This document shows, one piece after another, positions 25,220 through 27,409 of a DNA stretch of 64,000 nucleotides (its first letter is position 1; every line of letters begins with the position of its first letter). Source of the stretch: Cytophagales bacterium. GTDB lineage: Bacteria > Bacteroidota > Bacteroidia > Cytophagales > Cyclobacteriaceae. The position numbers were made by a program, and so were the translations under genes. The stretch is from contig JADBYQ010000006.1 of the NCBI GenBank assembly GCA_020402945.1, positions 1-64,000 on the forward strand. Reading direction: 5' to 3'. The notes under the pieces are model-generated. The model was not told where the DNA came from and ran no database searches. It saw nothing but the letters and a program-made list of their open reading frames with translations.

Positions 25220-25282
25220 CTTGTGCGAAAATTGTTATTTTTTGTTTGTTTTAACTCTTTCATTATTTAAAGCTTTTTGTTT

Positions 25283-25981
25283 ATGACAGTTAGCAATAAT
25301 GATTTACGAGGTAACTGGAATAGTTTTAGTATTAATGAAAAGTTCAAGTTTTTAAATAGGATAGAAGACCTAGAAGTATTTGCATCTAGGCATGTAACAA
25401 GCTATTTATCAAAGCATTCGTCAGAAGAGGTGTTCAATTCTTTGGCACAAGACAAAGATGGTATTGAAATTCTTAGAAAATATCAAAAGATGACAGATGA
25501 TATAATGGACTTACCATTTATCCACGATGAAAATCATTATTGGAATCAAAACCGCGAATCAATCTTAGCTCATCTCTTTACAATCTCTGAAAAATGGTTT
25601 GGAAAGATTTATGACCCCACTCTCACTTTGAAATTGGAGGACTTAAGAAAGAATATCAAGAGGCAAGGAGCAATAAGAAAGATTGAAAGTACGTATTCTG
25701 GTATAGATAAACTAAGTGAAATTATTGCCCGAAACAGTCAAAAGCCAAAATTGAGTATGGTAAATCAAGCAATTGATCTTTTGGGTTGTCTTTGGAAATT
25801 TATCCTTGCAATGTTGCTAGGACTTCTTATCTATAAGGTCATCCCGATTGCAATAATGTATTTTGGGCATAGCCTCGATAGGCTGTTTGGTCTTGACAGT
25901 TTTTTTCTTGGGATGTCTTTGTTTTTCATAATTATCTATTTCGTTTATTCAATTTCAAGTGCAAAAAAGCGAAGAAGATAA
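25283..25981 (+). CDS. Hypothetical protein with two C-terminal TM helices
   Basis: Helical charged N-terminus, hydrophobic LLGCLWKFILAMLLGLLIYKVIPIAIMYF and FFLGMSLFFIIIYFVYSI. Confidence 0.6.
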   Translation: MTVSNNDLRGNWNSFSINEKFKFLNRIEDLEVFASRHVTSYLSKHSSEEVFNSLAQDKDGIEILRKYQKMTDDIMDLPFIHDENHYWNQNRESILAHLFTISEKWFGKIYDPTLTLKLEDLRKNIKRQGAIRKIESTYSGIDKLSEIIARNSQKPKLSMVNQAIDLLGCLWKFILAMLLGLLIYKVIPIAIMYFGHSLDRLFGLDSFFLGMSLFFIIIYFVYSISSAKKRRR

Positions 25982-26197: not shown

Positions 26198-27367
26198 CTA
26201 TATCAAAATGTTAAGTTCTTGTAATCTTTGCAAAACTACCGGAAGGCTGACCACTCGCACGTTTTTATTGTATGGATGCTCTTTAGCTGAAGGAGTCACG
26301 ATAAAATTATGCTTAGCTTTTATGTCCTCAATGGCCAAATGATTCCCTTTGGTCAACACCGGATTATCTGTAAATTTAATTTCAATGGAAACAAAAGGTT
26401 TATTGCCTTTCACAATAATCAAGTCCACTTCAGAGCCGTCTTGTGTTCTGTAATAAAACAATTGGGCGTCATCACGCAGGTGAGTAGCAATTTGCTGAAT
26501 CACAAATCCTTCCCATGAATGCCCAAGTAAATGGTGACTAAATAACGCTTTCATGCTATGGGTATTCCAAAGCGTGTGAAGTAACCCGGTATCGCGTATA
26601 AAAATTTTTGGAGCCTTAACAATCCGCTTTTTAATGTTGTGATGATAGGCGGTTAACCTGCGCACCATAAAAGTATCTTCCAAAATATCTACAAACTTCA
26701 TGATGGTGGTTACTGAAACACCCAACGACTTTGAAAGAGAGCTATAATTGATGACTGACCCATTCGTACTGCTGATCATTTGTAACAACTGCATAACCAA
26801 CGACCTATTTATCGATAACCCTAATACGGCAATATCCTGCTGAACGTAAGTCCTGAGAAAACTATTGAGCCATTCAAAACTGTCCTTGTTACTTTTTGCC
26901 AAGTAGGCGCCAGGAAATCCACCTCTCAACCAAAGTTTCTGGTACTCCATGTACTTTGCTTCTACCAATGACAAAGGACCCAATTCACAAAAGATGATTC
27001 TACCCGCCAATGTCTCAGACCCTTGTTGAAGCAAATCTGGTGAAGCCGAGCCAGTAACAATAAATCTTCCGGGTTTCCGATTGACATCTATCACTGATCT
27101 CATTACAGGAAATAGTCCTGGTTTGTGTTGTATCTCATCCAATACTACGGTTCTTTTTATATTTTCCTTAAAATATAGTTCAGGTTCACGAAGCTGATTG
27201 AGATCAGATGGCAATTCCATATCCAAATAGACCGAATCTTTGGGAGTCACTTTAAGGATCGATTTGACCAGTGTTGTTTTACCCACTTGCCGTGGCCCAA
27301 TAACGCCTACTACCGGAAACCGTTTTGCCCGATCAAGTATAAGTTGAATAATATGCCTTTGGATCAT
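26198..27367 (-). CDS. AAA-family ATPase with C-terminal DUF4143
   Basis: GVIGPRQVGKTTLVKSIL Walker A, RTVVLDEIQHKPGLFPVMRSVID, FIVTGSASPDLLQQGSETLAGR, C-terminal YYRTQDGSEVDLII. Confidence 0.92.
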   Translation of the reverse strand: MIQRHIIQLILDRAKRFPVVGVIGPRQVGKTTLVKSILKVTPKDSVYLDMELPSDLNQLREPELYFKENIKRTVVLDEIQHKPGLFPVMRSVIDVNRKPGRFIVTGSASPDLLQQGSETLAGRIIFCELGPLSLVEAKYMEYQKLWLRGGFPGAYLAKSNKDSFEWLNSFLRTYVQQDIAVLGLSINRSLVMQLLQMISSTNGSVINYSSLSKSLGVSVTTIMKFVDILEDTFMVRRLTAYHHNIKKRIVKAPKIFIRDTGLLHTLWNTHSMKALFSHHLLGHSWEGFVIQQIATHLRDDAQLFYYRTQDGSEVDLIIVKGNKPFVSIEIKFTDNPVLTKGNHLAIEDIKAKHNFIVTPSAKEHPYNKNVRVVSLPVVLQRLQELNILI

Positions 27368-27409
27368 CCCTGCAAATTTAAACTAAAAAAATGAATTTGC
27401 AGGGATGAT
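27363..27409. promoter_or_regulatory. Perfect 16-bp inverted repeat containing the ATPase start codon
   Basis: ATCATCCCTGCAAATT (27363-27378), 15-nt spacer, AATTTGCAGGGATGAT (27394-27409); minus-strand ATG is 27367-27365; minus-strand TAAATTTG fits the -7 consensus. Confidence 0.85.

Follow-up and report, generated by a model that had tools for sequence, protein, structure and literature searches.

The inverted repeat that covers the start codon of an AAA_14-wHTH-DUF4143 ATPase gene is very probably a DNA operator, one that would be bound by the product of that same gene in an autoregulatory and probably repressing arrangement. This reading comes from comparing sequences. The gene, whose product is 389 aa long and belongs to PADLOC family PDC-S01, was recognized by its open reading frame and by Pfam and PADLOC models, and lies at 26198..27367 on the minus strand of the window, which is the whole 64-kb stretch of DNA that was analysed. 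The initial annotation had offered two explanations for the repeat, an operator for a dimeric repressor, possibly autoregulatory, and an RNA hairpin that hides the start codon. The first of these now has strong support, from a geometry that is fixed across phyla and from covariation of the site with residues of the adjoining protein. The second fares badly.

The repeat itself is present exactly as first described. Its arms, ATCATCCCTGCAAATT (27363-27378) and AATTTGCAGGGATGAT (27394-27409), are complementary at 16 of 16 positions across a spacer of 15 nt. Read on the minus strand and in the register of a dyad-centred profile, the outer (promoter-distal) arm is ATCATCCCTGCAAATT at 27394..27409, while the inner arm, AATTTGCAGGGATGAT at 27363..27378, has the start codon inside it. 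A chance origin is as unlikely as had been supposed: about 0.001 repeats of 16 bp are expected (64000 x 80 / 4^16, a back-of-envelope figure for uniform sequence), and this is the only perfect inverted repeat in the window with arms of at least 14 nt lying no more than 80 nt apart.

An inverted repeat close to a Bacteroidota promoter might be imagined to be part of an invertible promoter, or a dispersed repeat (REP/MITE). The chance of this is negligible. The arm sequence occupies a single locus in the 4.4-Mb assembly, with no other copy at 0-1 mismatch, and a reverse search with the exact 37-bp pattern, unspecific for low-symmetry matches, returns only 0-5 matches per genome; a REP or MITE palindrome would be present in many copies. 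A spacer of 15 nt here, and of 1-21 nt (mostly 1-7) in relatives, leaves no room for a switchable promoter.

When relatives are aligned on the dyad, the functional unit is better given as a 41-bp site, in which the 15-nt "spacer" is to be read as the degenerate centre of a site of fixed length. In the window this operator is ATCCCTGCAAATTCATTTTTTTAGTTTAAATTTGCAGGGAT (27366..27406, minus strand; dyad-centred profile, PWM score 36.5). Its dyad, at 27386, precedes the A of the ATG by 19 nt, and it shares the register of its relatives, with CCCTGCAAAT at -18 to -9. The minus-strand bases of its outer arm include C at -16 (27402), C at -13 (27399) and T at -8 (27394). The promoter elements that had been placed in or at the inner arm are indeed there: TAAATTTG (27373..27380, minus strand) matches the Bacteroidota -7 box TAnnTTTG and ends 5 nt before the ATG (27367-27365, minus strand), and GCAGGG overlaps the end of this box. 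From the position of the box, the window gene is predicted to have a leaderless or near-leaderless start.

Such palindromes recur with the gene. The assembly that holds the window has 12 DUF4143 genes, and a palindrome is found at 7 of the 11 that have readable 5' ends; these seven are about 33-47 bp long, differ in sequence, and lie just upstream of the start or over it. Homologues from the same family were compared after near-identical upstream regions had been removed, which left 86 non-redundant cases, and a palindrome was called at a score of at least 10 and a gap of at most 10. By this measure, 70 of the 86 (81%) have a palindrome. Among neighbouring genes, the 5' region has one in 4 of 134 cases (3%), and after dinucleotide shuffling the rate is 1.1%. 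The initial annotation had proposed looking for compensatory covariation in the arms of related genes, and held that its idea would fall if complementarity were not conserved at orthologous starts. Complementarity is conserved there, and the two arms change together.

The sequences vary by clade, within a dyad-centred register of C-18 C-17 n T-15 G-14 n A-12 A-11 A-10 T-9, where A-12 is found in practically every half-site. Most palindromes (82/90) have a base pair at their centre, and not the step between two. The general site, CCnTGnAAAT-n17-ATTTnCAnGG, 41 bp, has a fixed geometry.

This geometry extends far beyond the taxonomic family of the window. A half-site PWM learnt on that family was applied to 80 further homologues (35-48% identity), which a scan of public genomes had supplied and which are mostly from other families and phyla. 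Here, a site was found in 84%, versus 1.8% of 226 controls. The optimum for the spacing of the half-sites is sharp, with 67/80 at 0 and only 7-12/80 at +/-2. The record titles in this set name other Bacteroidota, Pseudomonadota, Verrucomicrobia, Acidobacteria, Gemmatimonadota, Chloroflexi, Actinomycetales, Planctomycetota and others, many of these records being MAGs that are possibly misbinned. The site is also found in isolates (Paracoccus yeei, Roseicyclus marinus and Rhizobacter sp. Root1238) and on plasmids of Spirosoma, Paracoccus and Rhizobium. In a third set, 83% of 86 genes have the site; almost all of these genes come from the phylum of the window but from families other than its own. 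Several relatives have tandem sites. Thus, a site with dyad symmetry and a fixed geometry, placed on the core promoter, is conserved together with the gene.

About 16-19% of the sampled homologues have no site above threshold, and some sites above threshold fit poorly. One variant group of Bacteroidota homologues (L239, L240, L241, L255, L256, L258 and L260; for example CCATGCAAATCATGGAATGAGTATCCATAATTGACAGG) fits poorly and possibly uses another spacing. The site was not found at the more distant DUF4143 subfamilies sampled (the paralogues and homologues L001, L008-L010 and that of Thermus). Two of these from the genome that holds the window, L008 and L010 (G000:C45:47079-47564 and G000:C9:13654-14148), have direct repeats upstream of the start (TTATACGTATGAwAAAGTGTAATTT-like x2; TACCCTAAyTwTGTG x2) and no palindrome, perhaps a different type of operator. 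At L017 the arms of the palindrome are 31 bp long and reach 14 nt into the coding sequence, which is mirrored upstream; a template switch may have perfected this palindrome. Relatives are present on 387 plasmid records, and on one Paracoccus liaowanqingii plasmid (L305, NZ_CP040765.1) the DUF4143 gene and its operator lie directly upstream of repA-parB-repC.

The position of the site with respect to the promoter bears on whether it acts as DNA or as RNA. About 43% of the sites overlap the ATG, and 120 of 211 lie wholly upstream of it. The commonest position of the dyad is -19 (53/211), as in the window; here, the inner half-site reaches as far as the ATG, whose AT supplies the outermost bases of the half-site. 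TAnnTTTG is the -7 element of Bacteroidota promoters, and of 86 near relatives 31, one of which is the window gene, have a perfect box that ends 3-7 nt before the ATG, where control windows predict 1.7. A box so placed predicts messages that are leaderless or nearly so, and in that case transcription would leave out the left arm. In other phyla, inspection by eye often finds sequences like a -10 or a -35 element in the centre or the inner arm.

A 5' leader hairpin that masks the start codon, acting as a translational control or a thermometer, would of course make sense of an inner arm that holds both the ATG and GCAGGG, and perfect 16-bp arms would fold stably if both were transcribed. However, with the -7 box where it is, in the inner arm, transcription should start downstream of the left arm, and more than half of the sites do not touch the ATG. 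Nor is there the excess of G-U pairs that pairing in RNA would tolerate: mismatches between the arms are G-T and A-C in the ratio 9:8 in the near set and 176:162 in the larger one. A hairpin also leaves the covariation of the site with residues 310, 309 and 209 of the protein unexplained. It is thus a very improbable account of the repeat.

This covariation speaks for a self-recognized operator. In a first attempt, regional identity of the proteins was compared with similarity of their operators, and gave no useful regional signal (the residual for the wHTH was -0.02). An unbiased column-by-base scan, with APC correction, paired 13 positions of the operator with 389 columns of the protein alignment. 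Residue 310 with base -16 ranks first of all associations (z 9.3), followed by 309 with -13 and 209 with -8. Because only the column-by-base scan gave a signal, the associations were retested on new genes and on a tree from which the relevant columns had been masked.

The code at +/-16 can be read off directly. Where residue 310 is D or E, the base is C; with N or Q it is A, with H it is G, and with A or S it is T. A rule fixed before the held-out test (D=C; N,Q=A; A,G,S,T=T) was correct for 98 of 120 half-sites of newly fetched genes, versus 38.8 expected. His at 310, which is outside the fixed rule, goes with G in 18 of 18 held-out half-sites, and H309 goes with A at -13 in 36 of 36 among the held-out genes. 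Across 215 operators, where only those whose two arms agree in the base are counted, the pairings are N with A in 35/35, Q with A in 26/26, D with C in 28/28, E with C in 5/5, H with G in 14/14, A with T in 36/36, and S with T in 10/10. These counts are not independent events, since the sampled genes share kinship.

The masked tree supplies independent pairs. Where the class of residue 310 had been swapped, the base had changed in 27 of 28 cases, and the code matched on both sides in 25; among pairs of the same class the base differed in 1 of 58. The other two associations are weaker on the tree, at 8/10 versus 10/51 for 309 with -13, and 13/20 versus 6/47 for 209 with -8. The window gene follows the code, with D310 and C at both +/-16, and its S209 tracks base -8. 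In protein-DNA contacts, Asn and Gln are matched to A, Asp and Glu to C, His to G, and small residues to T; this makes the code chemically plausible.

The same covariation bears on whether the site might serve some other regulator acting in trans, or a nucleoid protein, with the DUF4143 gene merely its target. A few intact operators without an adjoining DUF4143 gene do exist, as such a regulator would have it, and some matches in the pattern search that lack the gene are strongly symmetric. But the same geometry in several phyla, in isolates and on plasmids tracks the gene and not the organism, and base -16 follows residue 310 of the protein encoded next door. A trans regulator is improbable on these grounds, and autoregulation by the encoded protein is the most economical reading.

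Several of the sites without a gene have a history that can be read from synteny with gene-bearing relatives. At L189 and L205 (1501-1537), which are syntenic with the gene-bearing L059, the operator is kept between conserved flanks and the DUF4143 gene is absent; at L193 and L198, DUF4143 fragments with internal deletions retain the first 33-34 codons and the operator. On this comparison, all four are scars of gene loss with the site retained, a pattern typical of genes with fast turnover. Near-perfect operators are also found at L197:1501-1537 and L211:1501-1537, where no DUF4143 gene or remnant lies within 3 kb; the one at L197 is about 40 nt upstream of a lipoprotein-like ORF. These two might be trans targets or old scars.

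The protein matches Pfam PF13173 (AAA_14) with 94.2 bits against a cut-off of 27 and PF13635 (DUF4143) with 143.2 against 28.1, and its best match among the PDC-S01 models of PADLOC has an E-value of 9.4e-87. By these models it is a candidate phage-defence protein. PMC12988326 ranks PDC-S01 fourth in frequency among the defences of prokaryotes and has tens of thousands of instances of it; most PDCs, according to that paper, still await validation. The adjoining ORF (25277-25981, plus strand, 234 aa) has C-terminal hydrophobic segments by eye, and gave no match in a Pfam search.

An AlphaFold2 model built from an alignment of 31 sequences (pLDDT 93) has an AAA domain, a winged helix-turn-helix and a PD-(D/E)XK-like sheet. 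The AAA_14 P-loop domain (26960..27322, minus strand) carries Walker A (G24..G29-K30-T31) and Walker B (D77-E78). The winged helix-turn-helix, residues 188-240 (26648..26806, minus strand; helices 188-200, 208-215 and 219-231), is placed by the model and by the covariation of S209, and its matches to HTH_11 and MarR are weak. The PD-(D/E)XK-like core (26294..26527, minus strand) has E286, D315 and E329-x-K331 on a predicted helix and strands. These four residues are near-invariant in 230 homologues, as are those of Walker A and B, and K247-R248 in the loop preceding strand 254-257. With this topology the DUF4143 domain would be of the PD-(D/E)XK type, a putative nuclease. The codons of Q309 and D310 (26438..26443, minus strand) encode part of a turn, residues 309-312, between strands 301-308 and 313-320 of a predicted beta-hairpin, 3-6 residues from the catalytic-type D315. 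A search of a viral fold library returned only generic AAA matches.

Residues so close to a putative active site could suggest that the 41-bp site is mainly where the ATPase-nuclease loads or cleaves, rather than a transcriptional operator. The near-invariance of the catalytic-type residues, the short distance from the base-reading turn to D315, and the loci that kept their site after losing the gene all speak for such a function. Yet an intact site beside the gene in every genome would be cut by its own product, and the position of the site is tied to core promoter elements. This alternative is rather unlikely. A combined reading, more speculative than the operator itself and offered tentatively as a minor possibility, is that an ATP-controlled PD-(D/E)XK nuclease is parked on its own promoter through the hairpin next to its active site, like an armed sentinel; an infection that strips or modifies this complex would both derepress the gene and free the nuclease. 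If this were so, the site would combine the roles of a promoter switch, a place of storage and possibly a target for cleavage, and the loci with site kept and gene lost could be explained.

For the self-recognized operator, the sequences show the site, its conservation, its fixed spacing and its covariation with residues of the protein. From these we infer that the protein binds directly and as a dimer, that it represses, and that some signal, for instance phage or foreign DNA, induces the gene. The protein would bind the 41-bp site as a two-fold symmetric assembly in which each protomer reads one half-site. Here, the tip of the DUF4143 beta-hairpin (309/310) would read -13 and -16, with a contact geometry deduced from the model and the covariation, and residue 209 of the wHTH would read -8. 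Occupancy would most likely block RNA polymerase, so that synthesis of the protein is repressed until something removes the bound copies. It is position that points to repression as the probable sign of the regulation: the site covers the core promoter and often also the ATG of what is probably a leaderless message. The open-licence literature yielded no binding or expression data for the operator-bearing clade.

AAA_14-DUF4143 genes (PDC-S01) belong to the commonest candidates for defence, and in the open-licence papers found they have neither a known trigger nor a known DNA target. The operator is a concrete prediction of a DNA ligand for them. With the one-residue code at -16, binding and the swapping of specificity can be put to a direct test; the code also suggests that the hairpin of the nuclease fold reads DNA. 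Occupancy of the operator is, further, a possible reporter for the inducing signal.

Among known systems is TT_P0211, a DUF4143 gene of Thermus thermophilus; in cells with TtAgo, its RNA is 6.6-fold higher with plasmid DNA (PMC4406477). TT_P0211 has AAA 14 and DUF4143 domains, as does the window protein. The DUF4143 homologue on pTT27 (30% identity), taken to be TT_P0211 although the tag was not matched, differs in having no 41-bp operator; thus, the operator belongs to a clade and not to every DUF4143 protein, and the Thermus case lends weak support to infection-linked regulation. Regulation by infection is a guess, drawn from the status of the family as a defence candidate and from this one Thermus gene. 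The best fold match in the PDB is the archaeal Walker-type ATPase PABY2304 (2qen; 362 columns, TM 0.47/0.52), whose 14% identity and archaeal origin set it apart, and whose fold similarity is partial. PDC-S01 itself, whose models the window protein matches, is defined by protein models alone; in the open-licence papers found on DUF4143 and PDC-S01, no operator or regulation by one is described, and no earlier description was found.

Autorepressors with palindromic operators on their own promoters are, of course, familiar: phage repressors, the controller proteins of restriction-modification systems, toxin-antitoxin autoregulators, and defence regulators of the BrxR/CapW type. The DUF4143 proteins share with these a two-fold symmetric site on the core promoter beside the regulator gene, a wHTH, and, in some cases, tandem sites. 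They differ in that the regulator is itself the putative effector, with an ATPase and a PD-(D/E)XK domain, and in that the best-supported specificity residue lies in the hairpin of the nuclease fold and not in the HTH. Self-operators are known; what appears to be new is a putative defence effector ATPase that would read its operator through a nuclease-fold hairpin, by a code that is legible.
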